NCBI GenBank assembly: GCA_021773235.1
Contig: JAJFKL010000030.1
Coordinates: forward strand, 1 to 64,000
Reading direction: 5' to 3'
DNA from: Gammaproteobacteria bacterium
Lineage (GTDB): Bacteria; Pseudomonadota; Gammaproteobacteria; Eutrophobiales; Eutrophobiaceae
Length of the DNA stretch: 64,000 nt
The notes beneath the pieces were generated by a model, which was given only the letters and a program-made list of their open reading frames with translations, had not been told where the DNA came from and did no database searches. Positions 25,964-64,000 of the stretch are shown piece by piece. Numbering within the stretch: the first letter of the stretch is position 1; every line of letters begins with the position of its first letter. The position numbers and the translations under genes were made by a program.

Positions 25964-26404
25964 ATGGAACTAGAGATGAAAAAAATACTAGCAATAGTAG
26001 CGATATTATTTGGAATATTACAGTTCATGCCAATTATTCATTTCCCCGATATATCTTTAGCTCTTATCAGTGCTGGCACATCGAAATCAATAAATATGTT
26101 TGTAGTATTTTTACTGCCGCTATTAACTCTAACGTCGGGCGTAATGGCATTATTTAAAACCAAGATTGGTTTGATTTCATTAATGGGTGTTTTTTCTATT
26201 TATTTTATTATCAGTGTTTTGGGTTTCGCTAAACTTAAATTTTGGGAGTATCTATCTACTGACTACATGCCTAGCATAGGACGTATTGAGTTGATTACTT
26301 TTGGAAATTGTATCTTTTTCATAGTTTTATTAGTTTTAATCTATTTTAATATTTTTCCATCTAACCAGCGCCTCAACTCGACGCCAAAAAACGGCGCGAG
26401 TTAG
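25964..26404 (+). CDS. cassette 1: orphan membrane protein
   Basis: No family recognised. The 146 residues carry four hydrophobic segments (for example ILAIVAILFGILQFM, MFVVFLLPLLTLTSGVMALF, LISLMGVFSIYFIISVLGF and IFFIVLLVLIYF). ATG 25964 overlaps the recombination core; a second in-frame ATG at 25976 is equally plausible. The last 14 or so residues (NQRLNSTPKNGAS) are encoded by the attC site itself, so the natural stop comes from attC. As the first cassette it should be the best expressed from Pc. Confidence 0.75.
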   Translation: MELEMKKILAIVAILFGILQFMPIIHFPDISLALISAGTSKSINMFVVFLLPLLTLTSGVMALFKTKIGLISLMGVFSIYFIISVLGFAKLKFWEYLSTDYMPSIGRIELITFGNCIFFIVLLVLIYFNIFPSNQRLNSTPKNGAS

Positions 26405-26418
26405 ACTTATCGTTAGGT
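26359..26418 (+). repeat. attC1 recombination site
   Basis: R'' atctaac at 26359-26365 and R' gttaggt at 26412-26418; the interior ctcaactcgacgcc / ggcgcgagttag forms the stem. R'' is the exact complement of gttagat, the start of cassette 1, as expected for an intact cassette. Confidence 0.9.
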
Positions 26419-26424
26419 GCTCAA

Positions 26425-26757
26425 ATGCCCAGTGAATTTAAATGGACTTCAAAAATATTTGTATGGCTAGTAGTTATTGTCTTAGCGGGAGCTATTTTCA
26501 GCTACAACATGCCAAGAAATCCAAGCCCAGGAGTAACTGTGTTTCTTCCGGGATATCAATTAATCGAGATAGCGATAAGTCTATTTGGTATAGCTTTATT
26601 AATGGTTATGTTTCGTAAACGAAGCATTTTTCCAAACTTTGAATTAAATTGGTTAGAATCGTTCGTGGCACTTAATGGTGCCGCATTATTTATCGCTCCG
26701 TTTACTTACTTGCTGTTTGAGTTTTTATTACAGGTGGTTACCAATGTTGGCACCTAA
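26425..26757 (+). CDS. cassette 2: orphan membrane protein
   Basis: No family recognised. 110 residues with three predicted TM segments: KIFVWLVVIVLAGAIFSY (about 9-26), LIEIAISLFGIALLMVMF (about 46-63) and ALFIAPFTYLLFEFLL (about 88-103). ATG 26425 lies 7 nt after the attC core, leaving no room for its own promoter, so it must be read from Pc or a neighbour. The stop codon lies inside R'' of attC2 (acctaac). Confidence 0.72.
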   Translation: MPSEFKWTSKIFVWLVVIVLAGAIFSYNMPRNPSPGVTVFLPGYQLIEIAISLFGIALLMVMFRKRSIFPNFELNWLESFVALNGAALFIAPFTYLLFEFLLQVVTNVGT

Positions 26758-26838
26758 CAAGGCGCCCCAGTTGACGCACAAAAGCGTCGCTCCTATCGTC
26801 GCTATGCTTTTGGCGCCAACTGAGCTTGAACGTTATAT
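26752..26838 (+). repeat. attC2 recombination site
   Basis: R'' acctaac at 26752-26758 complements gttaggt, the start of cassette 2; R' gttatat is at 26832-26838. The stem gcgccccagttgacgc / ttggcgccaactgagc spans an 87-bp site with a longer loop than its neighbours. Confidence 0.88.
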
Positions 26839-26855
26839 TGCAGGAGAAATTGATC

Positions 26856-27287
26856 GTGGCCTCACCACCTATTACTGATCGAACATATGCCTACTTTGCC
26901 GTTACAGGTAAAGGTAGTTGCGCCCCGATTTCTAAAGCTCTGGGCTTGGAAAGCACAAATTCTTGGTCGGAGGGCGACATTCGCCCTCGGGATGGGAAAC
27001 CCTACAATTTCATGCGTTGGAGTCTCGAGAGTGGCTTGGTTGATACCCATCCAATCGATGAGCACATTGAGAAACTGTTATCTGTGCTTACTCCGCTTAA
27101 GCAAGAACTTGCTTCCCTGTCTAAATCCTACGAGCTGACCTTGCAATGTGTTGGCTACTTTCATCCAAGCGGCCATGGCATTCACTTTTCTAAGTCAACT
27201 GTTGAGCAAATTGCGAGTCTCTCACTTTGTATAGATGCGGATTTCTATTATGTTAGTGATAATGGCCACGAGCTGGATTACCACTGA
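26856..27287 (+). CDS. cassette 3: DUF4279 domain protein
   Basis: Resembles DUF4279: an N-terminal YAYFAVTGKGSCAPISKALG followed by a SWSEGDIRPRDG turn, a helix-rich middle (HIEKLLSVLTPLKQELASL), then LQCVGYFHPSGHGIHFSKST. Members often occur as small orphan or immunity-type genes, but no activity is established. GTG 26856 is chosen because aggag (26842-26846) precedes it at 9 nt; the frame is also open from TTG 26826 inside attC2. About 143 residues, predicted cytoplasmic. Possession of its own Shine-Dalgarno suggests efficient translation. Confidence 0.78.
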   Translation: MASPPITDRTYAYFAVTGKGSCAPISKALGLESTNSWSEGDIRPRDGKPYNFMRWSLESGLVDTHPIDEHIEKLLSVLTPLKQELASLSKSYELTLQCVGYFHPSGHGIHFSKSTVEQIASLSLCIDADFYYVSDNGHELDYH

Positions 27288-27296
27288 AAAACTGCA

Positions 27297-27369
27297 ATAT
27301 AACAATCGCATGCAGTCGGACAAAGTGCTCGCTACGCGCGCACTTTGCCGCTGATGCGAGGCGTTATAT
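27297..27369 (+). repeat. attC3 recombination site
   Basis: R'' atataac at 27297-27303 is the exact complement of gttatat that starts cassette 3; R' gttatat is at 27363-27369. The interior stem is cggacaaagtgc / gcactttgccg around tcgctacgcgc. Confidence 0.88.
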
Positions 27370-27382
27370 GCCTTAAAAAGAT

Positions 27383-27736
27383 ATGAAGCTAGAAAGGAGT
27401 CAATTTCTAAAAGAATTAAAGGAAACATTTCCAGAATTAACATCAAAGATTAATTCAGAGGAAGGTTTATCTACATTCGAAATGGATGTATTTTGTGATT
27501 TTACACAGAAAAATATTAATGATGGTGAAAAAGAAGTCGTTGTTGCATGTTTTAAAATTGCAGAAAAATATTATAGAGAAAGCAATAATAATTTTAAAAA
27601 TGTAATCTCAACTTGTTTTATTGAGGATTTATTGTTTGAAAATACAAAGAAAAATTATCGTGAATGGGCTTGGAAACTATTCCCTAAAATTCTAAAAGAG
27701 GATTATATTTCATTTCATGGTAAGTCAGGCATATAA
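27383..27736 (+). CDS. cassette 4: orphan soluble protein
   Basis: Function unknown. The 117 residues are predicted cytoplasmic and helical: LERSQFLKELKETFPELTSK at the N-terminus, a central DGEKEVVVACFKIAEKYYRE, and a conserved-looking end LFENTKKNYREWAWKLFPKI. It resembles small uncharacterised DUF-type proteins (possibly DUF7674), but the assignment is a guess. The stop lies in the R'' site of attC4. The coding sequence is strongly AT-rich compared with the core genes. Confidence 0.68.
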   Translation: MKLERSQFLKELKETFPELTSKINSEEGLSTFEMDVFCDFTQKNINDGEKEVVVACFKIAEKYYRESNNNFKNVISTCFIEDLLFENTKKNYREWAWKLFPKILKEDYISFHGKSGI

Positions 27737-27796
27737 CAAATCACTCCAAAGCGACGCGCGAAAAAGCCCGCGCGCCGCTGAGTTCAAACGTTAGCG
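27731..27796 (+). repeat. attC4 recombination site
   Basis: R'' atataac at 27731-27737 complements the start of cassette 4 (gttatat); R' gttagcg is at 27790-27796. The interior cactccaaagcgacgcgcg ... gcccgcgcgccgctgagtt is nearly identical to attC6 and attC8. Confidence 0.92.
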
Positions 27797-27806
27797 GAGA
27801 ACAAAA

Positions 27807-28400
27807 ATGAAAATGCTATATATCTTTTTAACGGTTGTAATTCTTTCAGGCTGTGTGCCAGGAAATACCCGTGTAGATCTTGAAAATGCTCGCATCGCTG
27901 ACAAAGCGCAAAAAAATGGAGATTGGAATACTGCTAGAAAACATTGGGCGATAGCAGTAACAAATGCTAATCCACGCGATGTCTCGCCCCAAGGTATGGC
28001 GATTTATAATTATGAATATGGCAGAGCCCTTGGCGTTACCTGTCATTTTGAATCATCTGAAGTCTATTTATTAAGAGCACATGAGATAGATGTAAAATCA
28101 AACGGGCCTTACTTTAATGATTTAATAGAATTAGCCCGTTTGAATTTAGACCAAAAAAAATGGGATAAAACTATTGAATATTATGACAAGGTCATGCCTG
28201 AACTTGAACGAATAAATGCAGAGGAGGACTCCCCGCATGAATTTGCAAATCTATTAGATGAATATGCAGAGGCATTGGAAGGTCTTAATAAGTCTGAAGC
28301 AAGCAGCTATCGACAGAAAGCTAGTGACATTCGAGATAAAAACCCCAAAGGCTATTCAATTACGGACAGAACACCATATGGATCACAATGTACTAATTAA
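27807..28400 (+). CDS. cassette 5: TPR-like lipoprotein
   Basis: An N-terminal lipobox signal (MLYIFLTVVILSGC, Cys about 17) predicts a lipoprotein. The 197 residues continue with repeated helix pairs resembling tetratricopeptide repeats: NGDWNTARKHWAIAV, FESSEVYLLRAHEID and LDQKKWDKTIEYYDKVMPEL. gcggagaa lies just upstream of ATG 27807 and starts inside the attC core. No family name can be given; a scaffold role in the envelope is a guess from the architecture. Confidence 0.78.
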   Translation: MKMLYIFLTVVILSGCVPGNTRVDLENARIADKAQKNGDWNTARKHWAIAVTNANPRDVSPQGMAIYNYEYGRALGVTCHFESSEVYLLRAHEIDVKSNGPYFNDLIELARLNLDQKKWDKTIEYYDKVMPELERINAEEDSPHEFANLLDEYAEALEGLNKSEASSYRQKASDIRDKNPKGYSITDRTPYGSQCTN

Positions 28401-28403
28401 AAC

Positions 28404-28465
28404 CGCTAACAAGTCGCTCAAATTCGACGCGCAAAAAGCGCGCGCGTCTTAGCTAGACGTTAGGT
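28404..28465 (+). repeat. attC5 recombination site
   Basis: R'' cgctaac at 28404-28410 complements gttagcg, the start of cassette 5; R' gttaggt is at 28459-28465. Stem around aattcgacgcgcaaaaagcg. Confidence 0.9.
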
Positions 28466-28469
28466 GCAC

Positions 28470-28796
28470 ATGAGCTATATAACAATAATTTGTTTTTTAG
28501 TTGCCATTTATTTTTCAATTCGAAATTGGAAGTCCCTTGCGAAAATCACAGAGAGATTAGAGCAAAACCATAAAGGTGATTTTCTTAAGTATGGAGATGC
28601 TATTACAGATGGTGAAAGTGCTAGTTTTACTTCAAAGTTGTGGTACTGGAAGCTCATTCATCAATCTAAACACAAAGCATTAGATGATATAGAACTATCA
28701 ACTCTTTGTGTTCGAGCAAAATATAATGATTATTTTGCTGCTAGTTTCTTTTTTGCATCTGTAGTATTTTTTATATTCAATGCAATATACACCTAA
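28470..28796 (+). CDS. cassette 6: orphan membrane protein
   Basis: No family recognised. About 108 residues with an N-terminal TM segment (YITIICFLVAIYFSI) and a C-terminal one (FAASFFFASVVFFIFNAIY), and a charged 60-residue region between them. ATG 28470 is taken; GTG 28464 inside the attC core is in frame and possible. The stop falls within R'' of attC6. No promoter space precedes it. Confidence 0.7.
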   Translation: MSYITIICFLVAIYFSIRNWKSLAKITERLEQNHKGDFLKYGDAITDGESASFTSKLWYWKLIHQSKHKALDDIELSTLCVRAKYNDYFAASFFFASVVFFIFNAIYT

Positions 28797-28855
28797 CAAG
28801 TCACTCCAAAGCGACGCGCGAAAAGCCCGCGCGCCGCTGAGTTAAAACGTTAGGC
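28791..28855 (+). repeat. attC6 recombination site
   Basis: R'' acctaac at 28791-28797 complements gttaggt at the start of cassette 6; R' gttaggc is at 28849-28855. The interior is nearly identical to attC4 and attC8. Confidence 0.92.
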
Positions 28856-28862
28856 ACTAGTT

Positions 28863-29351
28863 ATGAGGCATTTTCTTTTTGTTATAGCTATTTTTATTAC
28901 TGTAGATGTCAATTGTGAAAATAATTTAATTGATGCCACAAAATTATTTGATGATAGGCGTCAATTAGATCAAGTTACTAATCTAGTGTTAGATACAGCA
29001 TTCGATTCATATAAAGAATTTTATAAAACTCATTCTTGCAGTTTGTCTGATAATGATGGTCCTCCGTGCCAAGTTCGAATGCTGGCTGTAATGTATGCAA
29101 ATACATTAAATTTTGGTGAATGGCGCTATCCCATGGTTAATTATCCAACTTTAGCATTTGCTCCAATACCGGGAACGTTAAATCATGGAGATATAGTCAT
29201 TGCTATACATAGCATAACAAAGCGAAACGATGGGTACGATTATCACTTTGTAGTAGCAGATGGAGATCGAGGGCAATCTGGAAATACTACTTATAGAGTT
29301 AAGATGGTTAACGGGAGGTATGAATGTCACTATGTTTCTTCAGTAGATTAA
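28863..29351 (+). CDS. cassette 7: orphan exported protein
   Basis: No family recognised. The 162 residues begin with a likely signal peptide (MRHFLFVIAIFITVDVNC), followed by a mixed alpha/beta domain with three Cys in total (HSCSLSDNDGPPCQVRM and YECHYVSSVD) that could form a disulfide. The segment HGDIVIAIHSITKR and DYHFVVADGDRGQSGNTTY look like beta hairpins. Probably periplasmic. ATG 28863 is 7 nt after the core. Confidence 0.7.
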   Translation: MRHFLFVIAIFITVDVNCENNLIDATKLFDDRRQLDQVTNLVLDTAFDSYKEFYKTHSCSLSDNDGPPCQVRMLAVMYANTLNFGEWRYPMVNYPTLAFAPIPGTLNHGDIVIAIHSITKRNDGYDYHFVVADGDRGQSGNTTYRVKMVNGRYECHYVSSVD

Positions 29352-29352
29352 T

Positions 29353-29431
29353 GCCTAACAAGAAAATCCAGCTGACCTTCGAAAGCGTCGCTTCGCTCTG
29401 CTTTCTCGGCCAGCTGATTTAGACGTTATGC
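29353..29431 (+). repeat. attC7 recombination site
   Basis: R'' gcctaac at 29353-29359 complements gttaggc at the start of cassette 7; R' gttatgc is at 29425-29431. Stem ccagctga / tcggccagctga with a gcgtcgcttcgctc loop. Confidence 0.88.
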
Positions 29432-29447
29432 GAATAAAACGTAAATC

Positions 29448-30068
29448 ATGAGCGAAGTCGGAATTATATCTCTTGGTTATCGACTGCTGTCGGATCTGTG
29501 GGGTTTGGTTCGTGGTAAAAAACGTAGGCTATCTGAATCAGAGATAATTCAATTACGAAAAAAATGGAAAGAAGAATTTGAAACTAAATTACTAGAGAGA
29601 AGAAGGGACGGATTAACAACGGATGTAATTATCCGTGACATGAAAAGAATAGATAAATATCCTGAATCAGATGAAAAAGATAAAGGTATTTCACCTTGGT
29701 TTAAAGTTGGATTAATGAGTACTTATCATAAAGGTATATTAACTGGTCTCAGGTGGGGCAACTTAAAACTAGATGGAGAAAACTATCGATTTCGAGATTA
29801 TGTTAATAAAGAACAGGGGGATATCAAAGTTATCCTAATCGGTTATATTCCATATGAAAATATAGAGCATGTTGATTGGGATGGTGATGAATACGAGGGG
29901 CATCCTCACATTTACTGTTACTTTGATGCAACGAAAAAAGAACCCTATGAAAAACTAGCTTTTTGTAAAGAGAATTATCACAATGAGTTCCCTTTTTATA
30001 CTGAAGTTGCAGAATTTAACGATGTTAGAAAAAGAAGTAAGAAACTTAAAATTGATGATTTCGCATAA
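29448..30068 (+). CDS. cassette 8: orphan soluble protein
   Basis: No family recognised. At 206 residues it is the largest cassette protein. A basic helical N-terminal part (RGKKRRLSESEIIQLRKKWK, about 23-42) is followed by a beta-rich second half (IKVILIGYIPYENIEHVDWD, FPFYTEVAEFNDVRKR). Predicted cytoplasmic; the basic helix could bind nucleic acid, but no known motif supports it. The stop lies in attC8 R''. Confidence 0.7.
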   Translation: MSEVGIISLGYRLLSDLWGLVRGKKRRLSESEIIQLRKKWKEEFETKLLERRRDGLTTDVIIRDMKRIDKYPESDEKDKGISPWFKVGLMSTYHKGILTGLRWGNLKLDGENYRFRDYVNKEQGDIKVILIGYIPYENIEHVDWDGDEYEGHPHIYCYFDATKKEPYEKLAFCKENYHNEFPFYTEVAEFNDVRKRSKKLKIDDFA

Positions 30069-30128
30069 CAAGGCACTCCAAAGCGACGCGCGAAAAAGCC
30101 TGCGCGCCGCTGAGTTAAAACGTTATGT
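30063..30128 (+). repeat. attC8 recombination site
   Basis: R'' gcataac at 30063-30069 complements gttatgc at the start of cassette 8; R' gttatgt is at 30122-30128. The interior differs from attC4 and attC6 by only a few bases. Confidence 0.92.
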
Positions 30129-30433
30129 GTATGAATAATTTGAGAGTCAGTAAAACAGTAAGTGAATATAAAGCTAATCTCATAGTTTACGGAGAGAAAT
30201 TAAAAAATATTTCTGAGGTTGAAGTTAAAATTAGCGAGCATGAATACGCTTCATTCATTTATGCAAAAAAAGAATTTAATGCTGTAGAAATAATGGAAGA
30301 TGATTCTGGTGTATGGGTGGAATTTTGGAAAGTTGATGCAGATGAAGCACATCACGATACATCTTATAACTCGTATGAAGATGCATATACTCCGATAGAA
30401 AAGTGGCTGGCTGATGAAAATAAAAACACATAA
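30125..30433 (+). CDS. cassette 9: orphan soluble protein
   Basis: No family recognised. 102 acidic residues, predicted alpha/beta: ISEVEVKISEHEYASFIYAK, then IMEDDSGVWVEFWKVDADEA and a C-terminal helix YTPIEKWLADENKNT. ATG 30125 is built from the attC core (gttATG); ATG 30131 is the alternative. The stop is inside R'' of attC9. Confidence 0.68.
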   Translation: MCMNNLRVSKTVSEYKANLIVYGEKLKNISEVEVKISEHEYASFIYAKKEFNAVEIMEDDSGVWVEFWKVDADEAHHDTSYNSYEDAYTPIEKWLADENKNT

Positions 30434-30517
30434 CCAGTATCTCAACCCGACGCCGGAAAGCATCGCGGCGCTACGCGGTAAGTTTCTTGGCGGCGCCGGG
30501 TTAGAAAAACGTTATGC
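30428..30517 (+). repeat. attC9 recombination site
   Basis: R'' acataac at 30428-30434 complements gttatgt at the start of cassette 9; R' gttatgc is at 30511-30517. Stem tctcaacccgacgcc / ggcgccgggttagaa; 90 bp with a longer apical part. Confidence 0.88.
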
Positions 30518-30540
30518 ACATCAATAAGGAGATTAATATT

Positions 30541-30933
30541 ATGAAACCTAGCATCGTCAATATCATCTACTTTGTCCTGGGATTAATTTTATTTGGTTCT
30601 GTGCCTGGAATACTTGACGTCTTTATGAAAAACTCAGAAAGCATCTTTGTTGCGCTTTACAACTCTAGTATATTAATTATTTATTCAGTCGCATCGATAG
30701 TTGCTATTATTGGCTTACGTAAACGAGCTTCATGGTCAAGGTGGGTAAGCTTCGCAGTAACTGGGACTCAATCTATTATAATAGTGGCCGGCGGAGTATA
30801 TTTTTATTTTGTAGATTTTGAAAAAGGAATGGTTTTCGTTTTAATTGCAGTTATATATGGAATTCCAGCTTCATTTCTTACCTATAAAATTTTTGCGAGT
30901 ATTCCTCTAAAAGAATATTTATCAAATGCATAA
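30541..30933 (+). CDS. cassette 10: orphan membrane protein
   Basis: No family recognised. 130 residues with four predicted TM helices (IVNIIYFVLGLILFG, IFVALYNSSILIIYSVASIV, WVSFAVTGTQSIIIVAGGVY and MVFVLIAVIYGIPASFLTY). ATG 30541 is preferred over 30514 because aaggag (30526-30531) precedes it at 9 nt. The stop is in the R'' box of a truncated attC. Confidence 0.75.
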   Translation: MKPSIVNIIYFVLGLILFGSVPGILDVFMKNSESIFVALYNSSILIIYSVASIVAIIGLRKRASWSRWVSFAVTGTQSIIIVAGGVYFYFVDFEKGMVFVLIAVIYGIPASFLTYKIFASIPLKEYLSNA

Positions 30934-30954
30934 CAAGAATCTCAACCCGACGCC
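30928..30954 (+). repeat. attC10, truncated
   Basis: R'' gcataac (30928-30934) correctly complements gttatgc of cassette 10, and the next 20 bases follow attC9 (tctcaacccgacgcc). The match stops at 30954, and the loop, second arm and R' box are missing. An IS3-like remnant follows. Confidence 0.8.
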
Positions 30955-31081
30955 AATCTTCGATGAATAAAGTGGACACCTTAACCTAACTAAGAGGTGT
31001 CATATGAAAACAGGTCGCATGAAAAAAGTGCGTTACAGTAATGAGTTTAAATTTACTGCTATCAAAAGACATAATCCATGA
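30955..31081 (+). mobile_element. IS3-family-like insertion sequence remnant
   Basis: About 125 bp. An aagtggacacc-type end is followed by a short frame starting at 31004 that reads MKTGRMKKVRYSNEFKFTAI and then KRHNP stop. This is the N-terminus of an IS3-type OrfA (YSNEFKFTAIK resembles YSxEFKxxAVK). A 7-bp inverted repeat (gacacct ... aggtgtc) precedes the ATG. The remaining transposase and the right end are missing. Confidence 0.65.
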
Positions 31082-31117
31082 TGCCAATAGGCACACATTC
31101 GTGCTACACTTTGCTGC
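31082..31117 (+). promoter_or_regulatory. candidate toxin-antitoxin promoter/operator
   Basis: tgccaataggca (31082-31093) and gcacacattcgtgc (31091-31104) are overlapping inverted repeats just ahead of a possible -10 tacact (31105-31110). A CopG-type antitoxin would be expected to bind such a site. Inference from position. Confidence 0.35.
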
Positions 31118-31396
31118 ATGAAACCAATCAACTGGAACTCCACTAAAAATCAACAGCTTATCTCTGAGCGTGGCATTTCATTTGAAGATATAGTTTTCTA
31201 TTTGCAACAAGGTGCGTTATTAGATGATATAGAGCATCCAAATGGTGACAAATACCCAAACCAACGAGTGTTTGTCGTAAACATAGATGATTACGCTTAT
31301 CTTGTTCCATATATAGAAACCCGGAAAGAGATATTTTTAAAAACAGTAATTCCTAGTAGAAAGGCTACAAAGGAATATTTGGGAGAATTATCATGA
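31118..31396 (+). CDS. BrnT-like toxin of a type II toxin-antitoxin pair
   Basis: 92 residues resembling BrnT (DUF497) ribonuclease-fold toxins: an N-terminal INWNSTKNQQLISERGISFE in place of the family's WDxxKNxxNxxKHGVSFE, then DDIEHPNGDKYPNQRVFVV, YLVPYIETR and the C-terminal IPSRKATKEYL (family ISARxAxxxE). It overlaps the downstream CopG-like gene by 4 bp (ATGA), the typical order toxin-antitoxin for BrnTA. It probably slows translation by cutting RNA, by family analogy. Confidence 0.78.
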   Translation: MKPINWNSTKNQQLISERGISFEDIVFYLQQGALLDDIEHPNGDKYPNQRVFVVNIDDYAYLVPYIETRKEIFLKTVIPSRKATKEYLGELS

Positions 31397-31713
31397 GCAC
31401 CCCTAAACTTAGTAAAGAAGAAAAACAGATTCTTAAAGATTTTGAAGCAGGTGAATTCAAATCTATTCTTACGCCAAAACGTAAGAAAATGTTGCAAGCT
31501 GCTGCAGAAGAAACTTTTAAAAAAGATAAACGCATTAACATCCGTATATCTAGTCGTGATCTTGAGTCACTACAAAGGCGTGCACTTGAAGAAGGCATCC
31601 CTTATCAAACATTAGTTTCTAGTGTTCTACACAAATATGTTTCAGGTGGTCTACACGACATTATGGCTAACAAGGCGCTCAACACGGGCACAAAAAAGCA
31701 TCGCGCCGGTTAG
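31393..31713 (+). CDS. CopG/BrnA-like antitoxin
   Basis: 106 residues. A helical N-terminal part (LSKEEKQILKDFEAGEFKSI) contacts toxin in this family, and a ribbon-helix-helix-like C-terminal part (RINIRISSRDLESLQRRALE, EGIPYQTLVSSVLHKYVSG) binds DNA. It is coupled to the toxin by a 4-bp overlap. The last 15 or so residues (ANKALNTGTKKHRAG) are encoded by attC11, so the reading frame runs through the recombination site; the tail would change if the cassette moved. Confidence 0.8.
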   Translation: MSTPKLSKEEKQILKDFEAGEFKSILTPKRKKMLQAAAEETFKKDKRINIRISSRDLESLQRRALEEGIPYQTLVSSVLHKYVSGGLHDIMANKALNTGTKKHRAG

Positions 31714-31727
31714 CTAGAACGTTAACC
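31665..31727 (+). repeat. attC11 recombination site, last recognisable of the array
   Basis: R'' ggctaac at 31665-31671 and R' gttaacc at 31721-31727 enclose gcgctcaacacgggc / gcgccggttagc. R'' predicts a cassette start gttagcc, which is not present upstream, agreeing with loss of that boundary at the IS remnant. Confidence 0.82.
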
Positions 31728-31748
31728 GACTAACAAAACTTATAAATT

Positions 31749-32198
31749 ATGCGTTACGAATCGAAACCAGAAACAGCAAAAGGAATCGCAATCTTTACTG
31801 CGACATTCGGTGTTATCTTGCTTTACTTTGCTGGCTTTGTCGCTTCAGGATTTGCCTCGGTTGTTCTTGTTGTCTTTGGTTTAACCTTGCTCATTTTGAC
31901 AGTAATCGCGGCGACTGCCTGCTATTCTGTAACACTCGATCGCGCGTCGGGATCGGTTATCAAAGCATTCAATTCACGCATAGTTAATCGTAAATGGGAG
32001 TATCGTATCGATCAGTTTAATTCCGTCGACGTTGCCGTTGGTGGCAGAGGGGCGTTCGGTGAAGGCATCGTCGTATATTCCGCACAGCTGAAAGGTTCGA
32101 GAACGCTTCGTATAAGCCCTTGGCACGATGATAGAACTAAGGTTGAACTCGAGGCGGAGAAGATTGCGGATTACTTGAGCATTCCGTTTAACCACTGA
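31749..32198 (+). CDS. orphan membrane protein after the last attC
   Basis: No family recognised. 149 residues with two N-terminal TM helices (about 13-35 and 37-58, AIFTATFGVILLYFAGFVAS and VVLVVFGLTLLILTVIAATA). A soluble beta-rich domain follows (YSVTLDRASGSVIKAF and VDVAVGGRGAFGEGIVVYSA), similar in outline to bacterial PH-like membrane proteins. It starts 21 bp after the attC11 core but no attC follows it, so it may be a cassette that lost its attC or ordinary flanking DNA. Confidence 0.68.
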   Translation: MRYESKPETAKGIAIFTATFGVILLYFAGFVASGFASVVLVVFGLTLLILTVIAATACYSVTLDRASGSVIKAFNSRIVNRKWEYRIDQFNSVDVAVGGRGAFGEGIVVYSAQLKGSRTLRISPWHDDRTKVELEAEKIADYLSIPFNH

Positions 32199-32234
32199 TA
32201 AAATGAGCAAAACACGCGTCACTATCAATACCGT

Positions 32235-32600
32235 ATGACCTATGATGCATTCAATAAATTTTGTCGCTCACTCACTGCTACTTCATACGTTGTTCAATGG
32301 GGAAATTCTCATGTATGGAAAGTAGGCGGAAAGGTATTTGCAATTGGCGGCTGGGAAAAGGCTGGTAAATCTGCATTCACATTTAAAACGTCCGAGTCTG
32401 ACTTTCTTTTCCTGAGTGACGAGCCCGGTTATCGCCCAGCGCCTTACTTTGCCTCTCGCGGTATGAAGTGGATACAGCAGCACGATAGCTCGATTATTGA
32501 GGAGGATGAGCTTAAATATTATCTCAAAGAATCTTATCGTATTGTTTCATTGGGGCTAAGCAAGAAAAAGCAAAAAGAACTTGGTCTTAATCAAGACTAA
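32235..32600 (+). CDS. MmcQ/YjbR-like protein
   Basis: 121 residues of the MmcQ/YjbR (CyaY-like fold) family: MTYDAFNKFCRSLTATSYVV, the core segment VWKVGGKVFAIGGWEKAGKS, and SRGMKWIQQHDSSI. The family has a CyaY-like fold and is sometimes annotated as DNA-binding, but the role is unknown. The stop codon lies in gactaac, and the same gactaacaaaa occurs at 31728, before the preceding gene. Confidence 0.8.
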   Translation: MTYDAFNKFCRSLTATSYVVQWGNSHVWKVGGKVFAIGGWEKAGKSAFTFKTSESDFLFLSDEPGYRPAPYFASRGMKWIQQHDSSIIEEDELKYYLKESYRIVSLGLSKKKQKELGLNQD

Positions 32601-42127: not shown

Positions 42128-42189
42128 TTTTTTTAAATTTTTATTCTGGTTGGATTTCTAATTTCTTTTGAAATTGGTTTCGCCTTTTA

Positions 42190-42440
42190 TGGCGAGTCAC
42201 TTTTCTTTGAGTGGTCAAAGAAAAGTAACCAAAAGAAAGACCACCCCAATGCCTTGCCCTGCGGATACCCTCGGCATCACTCTATTTAAATGGCACTCGC
42301 ATACGGACTCCTCGACTCTGTCTCCTGATTCGTTCTACCTCCTGCATCCATGCAGTCGTGTCCTAATGCGCTCTCGCAACATCCATGTTGCTCAACCATT
42401 AAAATAGAGTAATACCTCGGCAAGTCACAAGGGGATTAAA
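42190..42440 (+). repeat. dispersed repeat, left flank of the 42-46 kb array
   Basis: Intergenic, no real gene. It has the hairpin cttttctttg ... caaagaaaag, then taaccaaaagaaagaccacc, ctacctcctgcatccatgca, gcaacatccatgttgctcaa and ends near ctcggcaagtcacaagggga. The same order occurs in reverse complement at 46568-46785, and related copies are at 59305-59516 and 59600-59800. The whole 42128-42454 gap is this repeat plus AT-rich flank. Confidence 0.75.
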
Positions 42441-42454
42441 ATCAAAAAATAGTT

Positions 42455-42512
42455 AATGTCTGCTTTGAGTTATCGAAATGAAAACTCAGCTTTCGGCCAG
42501 TAGCGGACATTA
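42455..42512. repeat. array repeat Ra
   Basis: Ends aatgtctgcttt and ggccagtagcggacatt. The adjacent minus-strand gene's stop TAA (42510-42512) overlaps the repeat end. Lies 14 bp from the flanking dispersed repeat. Confidence 0.8.
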
Positions 42513-42890
42513 AGTTTTTAATTCAGTATCTGGTTGAATTGGCTTGTTAGTAGACAATCGCCACCCGGCTAAGAAAGCAACGATCACACCTACAAAGAGA
42601 AAAATGTACCAAGATATTTCAAAAAATCCTAATACCATGCAAACAGAATATGAAAAGAAATAAGTAAAAAATGAGGCAAAGATAATTCTGTTTGTTGCAG
42701 GTGAAGACTTTGATTGATTAACACCAAAATAATAAGTAATAGAGCACGGGATGGTAAATAAAAAAGCGTAAAAAGTAGACACAATGATTATTTGTGTTTT
42801 TTCTATCGGCGCTTGCCAACTTCCATATAAATTAGCAGTAATAGCTGTAACAAAAAGCATGATTGAATATATAAATATTTTTTTATTCAT
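42510..42890 (-). CDS. array unit 1: orphan membrane protein
   Basis: No family recognised. 126 residues with four predicted TM helices (FIYSIMLFVTAITANLYGS, IIVSTFYAFLFTIPCSITYY, IIFASFFTYFFSYSVCMVLG, FEISWYIFLFVGVIVAFLAG) and a polar tail. The ATG is 8 nt from repeat Rb and the stop overlaps Ra, so the whole inter-repeat space is coding. Strongly AT-rich, unlike core genes. Confidence 0.75.
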   Translation of the reverse strand: MNKKIFIYSIMLFVTAITANLYGSWQAPIEKTQIIIVSTFYAFLFTIPCSITYYFGVNQSKSSPATNRIIFASFFTYFFSYSVCMVLGFFEISWYIFLFVGVIVAFLAGWRLSTNKPIQPDTELKT

Positions 42891-42898
42891 TATTTAGT

Positions 42899-42955
42899 TA
42901 TTGTCCGCTTTGGACATTCTAATTGTCACTCATGTTTCGGCCATAAGCAGACATC
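42899..42955. repeat. array repeat Rb
   Basis: Ends ttgtccgctttgg and ggccataagcagacat, centre attgtcactcatg. The stop TGA of the next unit overlaps it (tcatgtct in reverse: TGATGTC). Confidence 0.85.
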
Positions 42956-43310
42956 ATGACAAATAAAAATATGACATAAGATTTCCTAAAAAAGGAGCAA
43001 GATATATAGTCACAAACCCTAAAAATTGAATTAATCCATCTATACCCCGCGTTTTACACAGATAGTAAGGAATAACAATTGGCCAGAACATGAATGCATA
43101 GAATGGCCAATCAAGCCCCCATAATTCATTCTTATTAATTGCATCAGCATTAGCCCAATAAGCAATTGCTACAGAAAATACAAAGAACCAAGTAGTGTAA
43201 AGGGTATTACTTATATCAAACTCACGAAAACCCAGAACTGCACCATAAATAGTAAGTACAAAACTGGATATTAATATAACTAGAATAAAAAACGTTTTAC
43301 TATTTTTCAT
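42954..43310 (-). CDS. array unit 2: orphan membrane protein
   Basis: No family recognised. About 118 residues with four hydrophobic segments: TFFILVILISSFVLTIYG, TTWFFVFSVAIAYW, FYAFMFWPIVIPYYLC and LIQFLGFVTIYLAPFLGNLM. The DWPFYAFMFWPIVIPYY segment is Trp/Pro-rich. ATG 43310 is preferred; the frame extends to TTG 43319 within the repeat Rc. The stop TGA is shared with Rb. Confidence 0.75.
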   Translation of the reverse strand: MKNSKTFFILVILISSFVLTIYGAVLGFREFDISNTLYTTWFFVFSVAIAYWANADAINKNELWGLDWPFYAFMFWPIVIPYYLCKTRGIDGLIQFLGFVTIYLAPFLGNLMSYFYLS

Positions 43311-43317
43311 TGTTTTC

Positions 43318-43376
43318 AATTAGCCTGCTTTGAGTCGAACTTAACATCATTCTTATTCCGGCCATAAGCGGACATT
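43318..43376. repeat. array repeat Rc
   Basis: Ends cctgctttgag (diverged) and ggccataagcggacatt. The right end is well conserved; the left end has lost the tgtcc block. Confidence 0.75.
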
Positions 43377-43377
43377 T

Positions 43378-43755
43378 CTAACTAGACCGATTATTAGCTA
43401 ATTTAGTAATAGCTAAACAAACTAAATAAGCTATTAAAGCACCTGTGTACGTTGCAATTATAGGCGTATGAGTTTGTTGATAAGCTATGTCTTCCCCATA
43501 CGACTCAGGATAGTACGATGGTTCTAAAAGGAACCAAGCTATAACTGCCCCAATTATTAAATTGATTGTCGTATAGATATATTCAAATTTTGGAGCTGAA
43601 ATAAATGAGATCAATACGGTCATAAATGCAGCACCAAATCCCATAGCAGGCAAATGCCACATACCTAAAATATCTGGAACAGCGCTAAAAGCTAATGCGC
43701 CAAAAAAGAAGGCACCAAAAACTGAAAACAAAGATATTGTCCATTTTTTAATCAT
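43378..43755 (-). CDS. array unit 3: orphan membrane protein
   Basis: No family recognised. 125 residues, four TM helices (SLFSVFGAFFFGALAFSAV, MGFGAAFMTVLISFISA, TTINLIIGAVIAWFLL and IIATYTGALIAYLVCLAITK) with a periplasmic-looking acidic loop PSYYPESYGEDIAYQQTH. ATG 43755 is 34 nt from repeat Rd; the stop TAG lies 2 nt from Rc. Confidence 0.75.
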   Translation of the reverse strand: MIKKWTISLFSVFGAFFFGALAFSAVPDILGMWHLPAMGFGAAFMTVLISFISAPKFEYIYTTINLIIGAVIAWFLLEPSYYPESYGEDIAYQQTHTPIIATYTGALIAYLVCLAITKLANNRSS

Positions 43756-43789
43756 ATAATTATGAATGTATTTTCATTAAGAATTAAAT

Positions 43790-43847
43790 AATGTCCGCTT
43801 TGGAGTATTGTTATTGTCACTCATAATTCGGCCAGAAGCAGACATTA
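43790..43847. repeat. array repeat Rd
   Basis: Among the best-preserved copies: aatgtccgctttgg at one end, ggccagaagcagacatt at the other, centre agtattgttattgtcactca. The next unit's stop TAA is inside it (TAATGTC in gene orientation). Confidence 0.88.
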
Positions 43848-44363
43848 GACATATGTCTTATGTATCATTGACATATTGTTTACTTCACCTAAGTACTTCA
43901 TTCCTAAAAACCCAGCAAACTCTTTGGCTTTAACTTCTGCATTTTCATGCCACCTTTCAATAACGAGGCCATATATACTATAAAACGGAATTTTATGAAT
44001 AATATTTAGAGAAGATACGGTATTACTTCCAGACATTCCATTTTTACCCCAAGCTATACCTTCATATTCGCTCAAATCTATAACTTTCTTTTTTATCGGT
44101 TTCTTAAGCATCATTAGCTCAAACGTTAAAATATTATTTTGTGAAGAAAGCGTATATTTCTTCCACATCAAACTAATTAATAAACTAGGTAAAATAACAA
44201 TGATTGCTAATATTGAGAAAGGGTTAAACAAGTCATTACCTTCTTTTAAATGCTCATAAACTGCTAACCCAAAAATCACAAGAGCAGATATAAATATCAG
44301 AAGAAAAAACTGATACACATAATGATGTATAACTATGTCATCATTAATTATCTTATAGCGCAT
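43845..44363 (-). CDS. array unit 4: orphan membrane protein
   Basis: No family recognised. 172 residues: two TM helices near 18-37 (YQFFLLIFISALVIFGLAV) and 47-66 (FSILAIIVILPSLLISLMW), followed by a roughly 100-residue cytoplasmic-looking domain that resembles a small PH-like beta fold (KKYTLSSQNNILTFELMMLK, PFYSIYGLVIERWHENAEV). The stop TAA overlaps Rd. ATG 44363 is 33 nt from Re. Confidence 0.75.
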   Translation of the reverse strand: MRYKIINDDIVIHHYVYQFFLLIFISALVIFGLAVYEHLKEGNDLFNPFSILAIIVILPSLLISLMWKKYTLSSQNNILTFELMMLKKPIKKKVIDLSEYEGIAWGKNGMSGSNTVSSLNIIHKIPFYSIYGLVIERWHENAEVKAKEFAGFLGMKYLGEVNNMSMIHKTYV

Positions 44364-44396
44364 TTCATATCCTTAATTCTTTTCTAAGTATATTTT

Positions 44397-44453
44397 AATG
44401 TCTGCTTTTGATTGTTCTTAATATAACTCTCATTTCGGCCAGAAGCAGACATT
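44397..44453. repeat. array repeat Re
   Basis: Ends aatgtctgcttttg and ggccagaagcagacatt, centre attgttcttaatataactct. The stop of unit 5 (TAA) abuts it. Confidence 0.85.
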
Positions 44454-44454
44454 A

Positions 44455-44823
44455 TTAATTATTTGACCTCATACAGTTTGGCCATACTGAAAGCTCACCA
44501 TTTTCCCATTTCATAATCATCAGCGCTTTAAAGTTTTCAAACTCAGGATAGTCCTTTCTACAAACTAGTATTTTCTGCTCTCCATAACACTCTGGTTCAG
44601 TTTCTATATTGATTCGATCAAAATCTACAGCTACTTCAAATAAAGAATTGCCGCCAAAAGGAAAGTTAAAGTCTGCCCCTAGGGTTAAATATTTATCTTC
44701 TAAGTTTATGTATATTTCGTATTTTAATTTCTCACCTTCATAATAATAATATTGCATCTTATCTGGTTCGGATAAGCCTTCCTCTATAGGCTCGCAACCA
44801 AGAAATTCTGTAATTGAATCCAT
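44455..44823 (-). CDS. array unit 5: orphan soluble protein
   Basis: No family recognised. About 122 residues, the only clearly soluble member of the array: an acidic N-terminus (ITEFLGCEPIEEGLSEPDKM), a beta-rich middle (LKYEIYINLEDKYLTLGADF) and a Trp/Cys-containing end (MKWENGELSVWPNCMRSNN). ATG 44823 has aggga about 10 nt upstream; the frame also opens at TTG 44847. The plain alpha/beta look is reminiscent of immunity-type proteins, but this is not evidence of function. Confidence 0.72.
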   Translation of the reverse strand: MDSITEFLGCEPIEEGLSEPDKMQYYYYEGEKLKYEIYINLEDKYLTLGADFNFPFGGNSLFEVAVDFDRINIETEPECYGEQKILVCRKDYPEFENFKALMIMKWENGELSVWPNCMRSNN

Positions 44824-44865
44824 TTTCAGTTTATCCCTGAGAACCAACTATATTTCAACGTACAC

Positions 44866-44920
44866 TTTATCCGTTTTGCGTATTTTAAAGTCATTAGTAT
44901 TTCGGCCAGAAGCAGACATT
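44866..44920. repeat. array repeat Rf
   Basis: Right end ggccagaagcagacatt intact; left end degenerate (ctttatccgttttg). The stop TAA of unit 6 is within it. Confidence 0.75.
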
Positions 44921-45272
44921 AATTATATACATAACCAAAAAAAGCTAATGTCCCTATGATTAATAATCCATGTAGCATGTACCAGTTAGTAGCAGTTACC
45001 TTTCCATTATCAATCTCTGTATCTTCTATAAATAGTTTGTATCGAGTACGTAATACAGAGGATGGAGGGATAGTCACAAGTTTTCCTTCAAGTATTTTAC
45101 TATCATCACATACTTTAAAAAGAACAGTATCTTTAATGGTTATTTTATCAGGAGATTGAAAAAGTTCTTTGTCATCTACTTTTATACTAATATGAATTGT
45201 GAACCATAGGTGCTTAGCTAAAGCATGAGAAGATATATCAATTGTGTGATTTTTCCATTGATGAATAGCCAT
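44919..45272 (-). CDS. array unit 6: orphan protein with C-terminal TM
   Basis: No family recognised. 117 residues: a beta-rich soluble domain with MAIHQWKNHTIDISSHALAK, FTIHISIKVDDKELFQSPD and KLVTIPPSSVLRTRYKLFIE, then one C-terminal TM helix (YMLHGLLIIGTLAFFGYVY). Such tail-anchored small domains occur in uncharacterised DUF families. The stop overlaps Rf. Confidence 0.72.
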   Translation of the reverse strand: MAIHQWKNHTIDISSHALAKHLWFTIHISIKVDDKELFQSPDKITIKDTVLFKVCDDSKILEGKLVTIPPSSVLRTRYKLFIEDTEIDNGKVTATNWYMLHGLLIIGTLAFFGYVYN

Positions 45273-45295
45273 AATAACTACTATTTTCCGTTTGA

Positions 45296-45353
45296 ATTAT
45301 ATCCACTTTCGATTGCTTTCATTGTAACTCTCAATTCGGCCAGAAGCAGACCT
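45296..45353. repeat. array repeat Rg
   Basis: Ends atatccactttcg and ggccagaagcagacctt; the centre attgctttcattgtaactct is like Rd and Re. A diverged copy. Confidence 0.7.
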
Positions 45354-45382
45354 TTCTCTTTTATTTTCTTGCTTATAATGTT

Positions 45383-45721
45383 TCATGCTGAATTTTTATT
45401 TCTTCTAAGTATTTCCCATAATGGCAAGGCTAGAATAACAACAAAAATCACAAAAATAATTCCTATAAACTCCCCGCCTTCATTTAAATAACCTGAGTAT
45501 TTGCCCACTGCTTTTGAACTGCCAAAGACACCCACATACGCCAGAAATATACTCATAGAGAAAAGAGCTAATGGGAAAAATAACAATAAAGGTCTTTCTA
45601 TATAAAAAGTATATTCAATACAGCACCATATAAAAAAGATTAAAAATGGTACTGCCCATAAGACAAATACAATCCTGAGAAACAAAGTGTCTTCAATTGC
45701 CTTTTCAAGATATTCCCACAT
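45383..45721 (-). CDS. array unit 7: orphan membrane protein
   Basis: No family recognised. 112 residues with three TM helices (IVFVLWAVPFLIFFIWCCIE, LLLFFPLALFSMSIFLAYVG, FIGIIFVIFVVILALPLW) and a basic C-terminus (EILRRNKNSA). Unlike most units its stop lies about 30 bp from the repeat. ATG 45721 is 27 nt from Rh. Confidence 0.75.
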   Translation of the reverse strand: MWEYLEKAIEDTLFLRIVFVLWAVPFLIFFIWCCIEYTFYIERPLLLFFPLALFSMSIFLAYVGVFGSSKAVGKYSGYLNEGGEFIGIIFVIFVVILALPLWEILRRNKNSA

Positions 45722-45748
45722 TCTATTTATACAATATCAATTGTTAAT

Positions 45749-45806
45749 TATGTCCGCTTTGGAACTGTTTTATTGGGTCTCATATTTCGGCCAATAGAGG
45801 ACATTA
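45749..45806. repeat. array repeat Rh
   Basis: Ends tatgtccgctttgg and ggccaatagaggacatta, centre aactgttttattgggtctca. Confidence 0.82.
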
Positions 45807-45829
45807 TGAGTTAGAAAAATGTATGGCAA

Positions 45830-46378
45830 TCATAATTCTGGCTGTAACGAAAAAGAGTTTATAATCCGTCCATATTTAGACTCTTTTCCTTCTAATGCTA
45901 AGTGTTCATTAATTTTAATAGAATTTACAAAATTAGAATTAGAACATAACTTGTAGCTATAATTTTCATTATAAATATCTTTTACATAAATTGGATTATT
46001 ACAAGTCCTACTAACCTTAGTACTATATTTTTTATATATTTTTCCCGTTGTATGAAAATCATCCCCGTTATTTTTAATAATTACTGCCGGTATACTAAAT
46101 ATAATTACAGCATACGAAAGACCGACTAAAATTGGATATAAGCTAAATAGTAATAATGGCTTCTCTTTTAACGTGTTTTTAGGATGCTTATCCAGATATA
46201 TTGGGATAAACAATATAATTCCAATAATCCAAGAATAGATTCCAATTTTGTCTTTAGAAAAATCACTTGGCGTAAAATCTATCCAAAGTCCATAGACACT
46301 AAATAATGTTATTAATAGAATAAATAAAGTGTATGACTTTGCTCGTATTCCATCACCATCTCTAAATAATAAAGGCAT
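45830..46378 (-). CDS. array unit 8: orphan membrane protein
   Basis: No family recognised. 182 residues, the longest of the array. Four TM segments in the first 110 residues (YTLFILLITLFSVYGLWI, IYSWIIGIILFIPIYL, PLLLFSLYPILVGLSYAVII) are followed by a soluble C-terminal domain with two Cys (SRTCNNPIYVKDIY, YKLCSNSNF). It is the promoter-side unit of the minus-strand array. Confidence 0.74.
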   Translation of the reverse strand: MPLLFRDGDGIRAKSYTLFILLITLFSVYGLWIDFTPSDFSKDKIGIYSWIIGIILFIPIYLDKHPKNTLKEKPLLLFSLYPILVGLSYAVIIFSIPAVIIKNNGDDFHTTGKIYKKYSTKVSRTCNNPIYVKDIYNENYSYKLCSNSNFVNSIKINEHLALEGKESKYGRIINSFSLQPEL

Positions 46379-46416
46379 ATAAATATTTTAATAATAAAGC
46401 ATTAAACTGAATAACT

Positions 46417-46480
46417 TAATGTCAGCTTTGGGTCGTTAGCTGAATATTAACATTTTAACCAATCACTAAAAGCAGACATA
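46417..46480. repeat. array repeat Ri, outermost
   Basis: aatgtcagctttggg at one end, aaagcagacat at the other; the ggcc block is replaced (aaccaatcacta). Its outer position matches the edge of the array. Confidence 0.65.
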
Positions 46481-46567
46481 TTTAATATCACTTTGAATAG
46501 ATTCTATTTATAGAAAAGAGATGATATTTAAATCATTCAAACCTACTTCAAATGGGGTAGGTTTTAT

Positions 46568-46785
46568 AAATCCCCTTATGACTTGCCGAAACATTCTTCT
46601 ATTTTAATGGTTGAGCAACAGGACGTTGCGAAAGCGTATTGGCGACAGGGACGTCGCCTATACGCGTGCCATTGAAATAGAAAAATGCATAGGGTATCCG
46701 CAGGACAAGACATTAGGGTGCCCTTCTCTTTGGTTACTTATCTCTTGGGCACGCAAGAGAAAGTAACTCGTCATCAGACGAAATC
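46568..46785 (-). repeat. dispersed repeat, right flank of the array, inverted
   Basis: Reverse-complement counterpart of 42190-42440: tccccttatgacttgccg, ttttaatggttgagcaacag, gggtatccgc, and the hairpin region ctctttggttacttatctct ... gcaagagaaagtaactcg. The 46481-46832 gap holds nothing else recognisable. Confidence 0.72.
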
Positions 46786-46832
46786 AGAGATTACAAAGAC
46801 TGGTTAACCTGAACGGCTAACGCCATAACATT

Positions 46833-59183: not shown

Positions 59184-59304
59184 GTTTTTTCCTATTTAAT
59201 GGTGTTTTGTTGTAATTGGATTATTAAAAGTAGGTTAAATTTGGGGATTGTGCAACTTTGTTGCATGAATTTGGATTATTCAGTTCTTTTTAGCTTAGTT
59301 TTTC

Positions 59305-59516
59305 GTCTGATGACGAGTTACTTTTCTTTGCGTGATCAAAGAAAAGTAACCAAAAGAAAGACCACCCCAATAGCTTGTCCTGGGGATACCCTCATCCTTA
59401 TTCCATTTTAAACGGCCCGCGTATAGACGACGTCCCTGTCGCCAATACGCTTTCGCAACATCCATGTTGCTCAACCATTTAAAATGGAACAAGGACGAGG
59501 CAAGCAATAAGGGGGA
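59305..59516 (+). repeat. dispersed repeat, same family as 42.2 and 46.6 kb
   Basis: cttttctttg - cgtgat - caaagaaaag hairpin, taaccaaaagaaagaccacc, ggggataccc, gcaacatccatgttgctcaa, ending gcaagcaataaggggga. The 59184-59304 stretch before it is only AT-rich promoter-like DNA of the upstream gene. Confidence 0.75.
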
Positions 59517-59599
59517 GATTAACGATTTAGCTAAGGGGCAACGCTTTGCACTGTTCCGTTATGCTTTGCTGAGGAGGTGGGCTGTTATCGGGTTAACTG

Positions 59600-59815
59600 T
59601 GTACGACTGCATGGACGCAGGAGGTAGAGTAATGTCGGGAGCAATTACCGAGGACGCACAGTTAAGTGCATTAGGACAGGATGTCCACATGCGCGACCCG
59701 AATAACAGTACGCCGACGAGGGGAGCCGCTAGGCCAAAGTATCCGGGTGCCTTTCTCTTTGGTTACTTATCTCTTGGGCATGCAAGAGAAAGTAACTCGA
59801 CGTAAAAGGCGAAAA
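59600..59815 (-). repeat. dispersed repeat, inverted partner copy
   Basis: cgactgcatggacgcaggag and gtagag, then cctttctctttggttactta and tctcttgggcatgcaagaga hairpin, agtaactcg. In reverse complement it matches the family. With 59305-59516 it forms a long inverted arrangement. No gene supported across 59184-59856. Confidence 0.7.
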
Positions 59816-59856
59816 CTATTTATAAAGAAAACTAAGAATATAGGGGGGCACACTCA

Positions 59857-60297
59857 TTAGACAAGCCATCCTTTTTTTTCTGCTTTTTTGGTATACCAAA
59901 TCAAAAATGTAGCAACTACTAAGGGCAAAACAATCATCATAATAATTTCGAAAGGGTTAAATTTGATTGTCGTGATCGAAACATTAATTGTATGAATCAT
60001 TGTTACTATGATCCCAAGTAATGAGGCGATAAAGAAATATAATGCAGTTGATTTTCTAAATAGAAGTAATAGACAACCAAGAGATCCAATAATAACGCCA
60101 ATTCCAAAGCCTGCGGTTGCCCATATGGGTCGACCTTCTATGATGGCGCGATGTGTTTCTGGGAATGCAGCAAGGGCTTCTGCGGTTGCATTTATTTGCC
60201 AGAAAAAATTCGCGCTGCCCATAACATTCCAAATTAGCATAAACACACTGATTGCCCAGAAACTCCAGTGAACTTTATTGTTGCTGTTATCGTTCAT
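59857..60297 (-). CDS. orphan inner-membrane protein
   Basis: No named family. About 146 residues with four TM helices: WSFWAISVFMLIWNVMGSAN, AGFGIGVIIGSLGCLLLLF, ALYFFIASLLGIIVTMIHT and FEIIMMIVLPLVVATFLIWY. The N-terminal FW...LIWNxMGxxNFFW motif recurs in small sugar- or stress-related membrane proteins of unknown role. ATG 60297 (MNDNSNNKVHW) has gagaga upstream; the frame runs to 60363. Located downstream of nfsA on the same strand with a small gap. Confidence 0.78.
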   Translation of the reverse strand: MNDNSNNKVHWSFWAISVFMLIWNVMGSANFFWQINATAEALAAFPETHRAIIEGRPIWATAGFGIGVIIGSLGCLLLLFRKSTALYFFIASLLGIIVTMIHTINVSITTIKFNPFEIIMMIVLPLVVATFLIWYTKKAEKKGWLV

Positions 60298-60372
60298 TGT
60301 TTTTCTCTCATATAAATAAATTGATGATTTATATTTTGAATTATCATAAAGGCTCAGACCCAAATAATATTT

Positions 60373-63746: not shown

Positions 63747-63765
63747 TAATCCGGAAGGGTACTTC

Positions 63766-63910
63766 TAAAAATTAGTATTTATTCGTGAGAGCGAGGAAGC
63801 ACCGCGCACACGACTGCATGGATGCAGGAGATAGAGCGACGCAGGAAGCCAAAGCCGAGAACCGCAGTGTATAATTAATACATGAGGAGATCCTGCCCTG
63901 TGGGTATTCG
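63766..63910 (-). repeat. dispersed-repeat block (inverted copy of 17.9-18.1 kb)
   Basis: In reverse complement it repeats ggatctcctcatgtattaat, ctcctgcatccatgcagtcg and gctctcac ... ctaatttttagaagt from the accC-prmA gap. The rest of the window to 64000 shows no supportable gene. Confidence 0.6.
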
Positions 63911-64000
63911 AGCACGGAGCTGACGCGGCTTACCATGAATGATTTAGTATGGAACGGCATATTAATCGCGGAAAAAGACAATTTTAAGAGGTACCCTGAA

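Follow-up and report, generated by a model that had tools for sequence, protein, structure and literature searches.

The stretch of DNA analysed here, positions 1 to 64,000 of contig JAJFKL010000030.1 from a Gammaproteobacteria bacterium (GenBank assembly GCA_021773235.1) and referred to below as the window, carries a block of eight small open reading frames (ORFs) at 42.1–46.8 kb between the convergent genes ilvA (threonine dehydratase) and metW, bracketed by two copies of a dispersed repeat, RepA and RepB. This block is probably an integron-like cassette array with RepB in its head, and RepA would be the 3' repeat of the convergent ilvA. Read in the direction of the ORFs, its proposed order is the metW end; a head made of RepB with a terminator-like hairpin at its 5' end, a linker with a hairpin and an attI-like site; eight cassettes with a 57-nt site at the 3' end of each; and RepA. 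A site-specific recombinase would add and remove cassettes at the head site and the array sites; possibly it is a tyrosine recombinase that consists of the catalytic domain only and that acts in trans or has since been lost. The repeat copies may insulate the array from host transcription. The window belongs to a 2.87-Mb draft genome (G000) in 50 contigs that is 80.9% complete; the names of flanking genes (ilvA, metW, sspB, msbA-like, nuoN-like and the others below) were assigned by Pfam.

The cassettes of an integron each consist of an ORF and a 3' site, read in one direction, and this is the arrangement found here: eight ORFs of 112–182 aa lie on the minus strand, and one repeat of about 57 nt stands at the 3' end of each, the repeats (r1–r8, also on the minus strand) spanning 42455–45805. 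From the head towards ilvA, the cassettes comprise an ORF of 182 aa (45830–46378), the first after the head, with r8 (45749–45805; 67.4 bits); 112 aa (45383–45721) with r7 (45298–45354; 66.4 bits); 117 aa (44919–45272) with r6 (44864–44920; 61.6 bits); 130 aa (44455–44847) with r5 (44397–44453; 75.1 bits); 172 aa (43845–44363) with r4 (43790–43846; 79.3 bits); 125 aa (43378–43755) with r3 (43320–43376; 63.8 bits); 121 aa (42954–43319) with r2 (42899–42955; 71.0 bits); and 126 aa (42510–42890) with r1 (42455–42511; 64.2 bits), the last cassette site, which adjoins RepA. These bit scores are high by construction, because the model was built from r1–r8 themselves. The stop codon lies within 2 bp of the repeat for six of the eight ORFs. 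The 117- and 130-aa ORFs have no Pfam match and the other six none over the cut-off; no recombinase, invertase or transposase exceeded the Pfam cut-off among the eight. The array is not a product of chance, because CGGCCAGAAGCAGACATT, with at most three mismatches, occurs eight times in the window against 0.02 expected, seven of these occurrences being inside the array. An isolated match to an array-repeat arm, with two mismatches, lies far from the array at 8892–8909 on the minus strand.

At the metW end, positions 46409–46794 form one unit on the minus strand. It comprises the dispersed repeat RepB (46569–46794 by profile, 39 bp 3' of metW), a linker of about 85 bp (46481–46568) that holds a hairpin (CCTACCCCATTTGAAGTAGG) and recurs in other heads, and a site of about 64 nt (about 46416–46480) with the arms of the array repeats; the profile match of RepB continues past 46569 to 46409. 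The head site is a diverged ninth site, attI-like in position. The same head module was found at ten loci in three genomes of one genus, shortly after the 3' end of a host gene and in the sense direction of that gene. Four of the loci are in G000, namely the window and the loci after an msbA-like gene, sspB and a nuoN-like gene (L078, L079 and L080); two are in G009 (L126 and L128) and four in G003 (L133, L134, L135 and L137, the last three with a partial dispersed repeat). These loci were chosen from matches and are not a census. The linker and site occur without the dispersed part at L141, L083 and L198, and the site occurs alone at L085, L125 and L127. Sixteen head sites, including that of the window, can be aligned; their consensus starts with ATGTCTGCTTTT and ends with CGACCCAAAGCAGACATTA, which are the arms of the array repeats. 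The head module recurs as a unit, and RepB is therefore part of the start of the array and not a chance neighbour. Array-repeat matches at E 0.01 occur in 15 of the 53 genomes of the family, with 24 matches in G000, 24 in G009 and 20 in G004.

Behind heads at the same host gene, the contents differ between genomes. After sspB, where the head is shared, the ORFs before the last repeat number two in G000, nine in G009 and one in G003; G006 has a lone repeat at this place and G011 none. The locus flanked by the msbA-like gene and a GGDEF gene holds three ORFs in G000 and one in G003, in G006 the head site is followed by about 6.5 kb, and the gap between the matched ends is about 130 bp in G011, 147 bp in G005, 5 bp in G001 and 92 bp in G004. 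The contents after the nuoN-like gene also differ between G000 and G003. Variable content at a fixed primary site, as in integrons, is thus found at these three loci, the site being analogous to attI and not attI itself. Empty sites were found as well. The 42.1–46.8 kb block is absent from G006, with 20 bp between the ilvA and metW stops, and from G009, where the stops overlap; the two genes are side by side in these two genomes, near each other in G011, and no such adjacency was found in the remaining congeners. The locus between MgtE and GGCT genes is empty in G006 (about 40 bp) and G007 (about 52 bp). A blastn comparison among 26 array stretches, one of them a classical integron array, gave two matches of at least 100 nt, one at the same sspB locus (476 nt, 96.4% identity) and another of 101 nt with 71% identity, and tblastx gave hints of distantly related cassettes in different arrays. 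At the sspB locus, a 152-aa ORF without a Pfam match starts inside a truncated array repeat (L079:3536–4011 and L126:7375–7850); it is 96–97% identical between G000 and G009, and its flanks are 90–91% identical.

The copy at the other end, RepA, belongs to the same dispersed repeat of about 280 bp and maps by profile to 42162–42438 on the plus strand, 35 bp 3' of ilvA and sense-oriented with respect to it. The preliminary description had reported an inverted pair at 42190–42440 and 46568–46785 lying at the array boundary, 14 and 88 bp outside the repeats; profile mapping of the copy ends upholds this, with 16 bp between the end of RepA and the first repeat and 88 bp between the ninth site and RepB. 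The inverted arms are 42219–42303 with 46659–46743 (85 nt, 80%) and 42386–42437 with 46569–46620 (52 nt, 88%). By BLAST, RepA and RepB are 67.6% identical over 250 columns (E 1e-21), and their longest common exact stretch is 23 nt. Twenty-one copies of the dispersed repeat were compared by pairwise identity alone, since the tree had several weak nodes. Among the 20 other copies, the nearest to RepA is the msbA-locus head (90.4%), and the best match of RepB reaches 81.5%, with RepA outside its top eight. A tail copy is present at three of the ten heads: in the window, at L128 (MgtE and GGCT genes of G009) and at L133 (an exonuclease gene of G003), the last being an 83-bp remnant. The most likely source of the inverted geometry is the position of the array between convergent genes, both of which carry a repeat copy in their own sense direction at the 3' end; in the window and at L128 the two repeats each stand behind one member of such a gene pair, so that their inverted orientation is to be expected. 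The tail copy of L128 adjoins 66 nt that are 94% identical to part of an array in G004, much as RepA adjoins r1. When read on the plus strand, r1 gives a weak match to the head site (E 1e-4), which an imperfect palindrome allows; there may be a second, truncated head at RepA.

Copies of the dispersed repeat often follow an ORF on the same strand. The profile gave 33 matches in the chosen loci, 24 of them with an intact 5' end; these are not all independent, since some represent a single locus in several species. For 20 of these 24 copies the next upstream ORF of at least 90 aa is on the same strand, within 150 bp in 18 cases; three of the other four have an upstream ORF on the opposite strand, and one has no upstream ORF of at least 90 aa, its nearest smaller ORF being opposite. 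Terminator-like hairpins stand at the 5' ends of RepA (42179–42196) and RepB, and a terminator scan of the block found four against 2.0 expected. RepA has 35 matches in G000, many of them partial. A nested module at about 42304–42364 within RepA also has matches of its own, without the rest of RepA, at many places in G000 and its relatives, as a repeat within a repeat. The strand opposite RepB matches the Rfam family TwoAYGGAY (RF01731) at 46563–46728 on the plus strand with 53.1 bits (gathering score 43). Among the 12 loci searched, a single copy, in L004, also passes the gathering score, as does the copy at 59.3 kb in the window, and neither RepA nor the copies in the other 11 loci do. TwoAYGGAY is a known RNA family, whereas here it is matched by a many-copy dispersed repeat on the strand opposite its sense direction; because RepB, the 59.3-kb copy and one L004 copy alone match, we rest no function on this label. 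A phage search gave no match, and among plasmids five records match just about 50 bp of RepA.

The same block had been taken in the preliminary description for either a compound element of about 4.6 kb or an invertible segment, and the comparisons support neither. As a compound element, two MITE-like repeats (miniature inverted-repeat transposable elements) would have brought the 4.6-kb segment in one piece to its place between ilvA and metW, an origin that has been proposed for class 1 integrons flanked by MITEs. In such integrons of Acinetobacter (PMC3934969), as here, a cassette array lies between two non-coding repeat copies of a few hundred bp; the Acinetobacter MITEs are identical 439-bp copies in the same direction with 5-bp target repeats, whereas the copies here are diverged and inverted, have no convincing target repeats, and one of them belongs to the array head. 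Absence of the whole block from G006 and G009 fits such an element, as does absence of a second bracketed block (L128 of G009) from G006 and G007, and both ends are immediately flanked on the outside by the 6-bp direct repeat CTGGTT; however, this was the only candidate target duplication, and 303 of 1000 shuffles were as good. Near-identical ends would be expected, but RepA and RepB, at 67.6% identity, are not each other's nearest copies, seven of the ten heads have no tail copy and one of the three tail copies is a remnant, and none of the eight ORFs scores as a transposase. The preliminary description had named relatives with the same array but no flanking repeats as grounds for refuting its proposal; for the class as a whole, arrays of this repeat that lack the dispersed repeat within the stretches compared do exist, at L083 (in a stretch that offers only 252 bp before the match), L085 and L127, and also at L125 and L130, although these two are cut by contig ends. 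The shuffles, the nearest copies and the longest exact match rule out a compound transposon as the leading explanation, and we regard it as unlikely. Recombination between RepA and RepB that flips the array would suit their inverted orientation and the 23-nt exact match, but their overall identity is low, no invertase over the Pfam cut-off was found among the eight ORFs, the mapped head-bearing arrays have one head-to-repeat polarity throughout and no flipped allele was seen; inversion is scarcely credible on these grounds.

Two further explanations concern the array itself. It could be a remnant of the classical integron of the window, whose attC sites have decayed: a true IntI is encoded 17 kb away at 24643–25629 on the minus strand (TIGR02249, 420.9 bits against a cut-off of 265), and beside it, at about 25964–32600, are consecutive small ORFs with attC-like repeats between them. 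This IntI adjoins that separate array, however, and is not at the platform described here. Pairs of the form RYYYAAC...GTTRRRY number 0 on either strand of 42440–46500, whereas the classical array has 2 and 3 by strand, and two control stretches of 24 and 11.5 kb have 1 each per strand; none of the nine repeats holds both attC motifs in order, and one has GTTRRRY alone. On these counts we reject decayed attC sites, and the array repeats are a coherent family in other genomes with a head site of their own; descent from the classical integron is accordingly highly improbable. Judged from the letters of the sites, the array sites are unlike those of known integrons. Alternatively, there might be no recombination system at all, accessory genes piling up between convergent genes and the repeats being self-spreading palindromes or terminators. 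Same-arm palindromes do occur in many Proteobacteria and the repeat arms do not covary, which favours this explanation, but it would leave unaccounted for one repeat per ORF at the 3' end with all cassettes in one direction, a distinct conserved head site at one end, and differing contents at the same place; we hold it to be improbable.

The integron-like array is best compared with chromosomal integrons and with integrase-less attC clusters, known as CALIN. It shares with them co-oriented small ORFs, mostly of unknown function, each with a 3' site, a distinct head site and contents that vary at a fixed platform. It differs in that its sites lack the attC core and are conserved in sequence, in that there is no IntI at the locus, and in that several small platforms occur per genome, each beside the 3' end of a host gene. 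A folded attC-like hairpin substrate is not claimed, because the arms covary no more than shuffles.

A candidate for the enzyme comes from G009, whose contig C71 opens inside a tyrosine recombinase (C-terminus, PF00589), with 114 bp between its stop and a head site; 13 repeat matches come after that site. Its aligned relatives span about 195–200 aa, which would be too short for the two domains of IntI, and in sequence it is remote from IntI, scoring 20.7 bits (E 2e-4) with the integrase_gron model, whose cut-off is 265. Tyrosine recombinases as small as about 200 aa are known, similar in size to FimB; the G009 fragment, which falls in PF00589, resembles them, and both it and its relatives carry H-x-x-R, LLGH and a Tyr, motifs of tyrosine recombinases. 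Relatives were found in 41 of 299 genomes of the phylum (E 1e-30), four of 143 of the class (E 1e-15) and two of 53 of the family (E 1e-8). A short palindrome with the same arms stands 3' of the recombinase in G096 (two genes), in G215 and at two sphingomonad loci, the latter picked for the site. Of the 38 loci compared, 36 were picked for the recombinase (L209–L244) and L155 and L171 were added for the site; L210 and L215 extend less than 400 bp past the stop, and the further relative L246 less than 60 bp behind it. With the two added loci, a strict palindrome stands no more than 400 bp from the stop in five of 38. Scanned for inverted repeats in general, the sequence downstream of the recombinases gave mostly terminator-like structures, and the repeat-arm pattern found 37 stretches in genome contigs, many with other loop lengths, which is a lead only. 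On the sphingomonad contig L155, same-arm sites lie at 407, 1022, 1477 and 2201, and the recombinase stop abuts the last of them. The sequences thus suggest, and do no more than suggest, a small tyrosine recombinase of the G009 type as the candidate enzyme for these arrays.

Several observations weigh against the cassette-array interpretation. The recombinase was not found in G000 at the thresholds used, in a draft that is 80.9% complete, or in 51 of the 53 family genomes at E 1e-8, among them the array-rich G004. The strict same-arm palindrome occurs within 400 bp of the stop at three of the 36 recombinase-picked loci, two of them from one genome, and because of this low count the link between recombinase and site is suggestive only. 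The msbA locus of G009 holds about 549 bp without a head match, at the nuoN locus of G000 the ORFs that follow the head are oriented against it, and in G011 several hundred bp of other sequence separate ilvA and metW; some empty sites could also be explained by loss. The repeat arms (48 array repeats, 14 pairs, 80.7% paired) are conserved in sequence with covariation no greater than in shuffles, an outcome that was the same with eight repeats, and conservation without covariation is unlike what is expected of folded attC sites. Promoter-like sites in the block are fewer than in shuffles (13 against 23.8 by consensus scan), with none in the linker; the terminator role proposed for the repeats rests on the same consensus scan, and the 5' hairpin is the top-scoring stem in just six of 24 copies.

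It is a possible, if tentative, extension that these arrays represent a second kind of integron, with platforms made of repeat, linker and attI-like site, 57-nt cassette sites that are not attC, and a tyrosine recombinase that is not IntI and has the catalytic domain only, existing beside the classical integron, with kindred recombinase-linked sites in distant Proteobacteria. If cassettes are exchanged at these sites, array-based gene capture would not be limited to IntI/attC integrons, and searches based on attC would overlook such arrays. A head site, cassette sites and a candidate recombinase make a direct assay possible. Furthermore, an inverted repeat pair around an array can come from convergent genes that share a 3' repeat, without a transposon. 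None of the papers listed in literature searches, which covered few subscription papers, describes these sites, and novelty in print is not established by them.

Two other inverted arrangements were noted in the window. The related pair that the preliminary description had placed at 59.3–59.8 kb is present, at 59288–59515 (plus) and 59665–59833 (minus); it forms part of a region at 59259–60372 that also contains a 168-aa ORF without a Pfam match. In the relatives, about 30 bp (G009) and about 56 bp (G007) lie between the matched ends of this site, and G006 and G003 have other sequence there. A different repeat occurs in inverted orientation at 17923–18080 and 63761–63918, about 45.7 kb apart, with 84–88% identity over three stretches.

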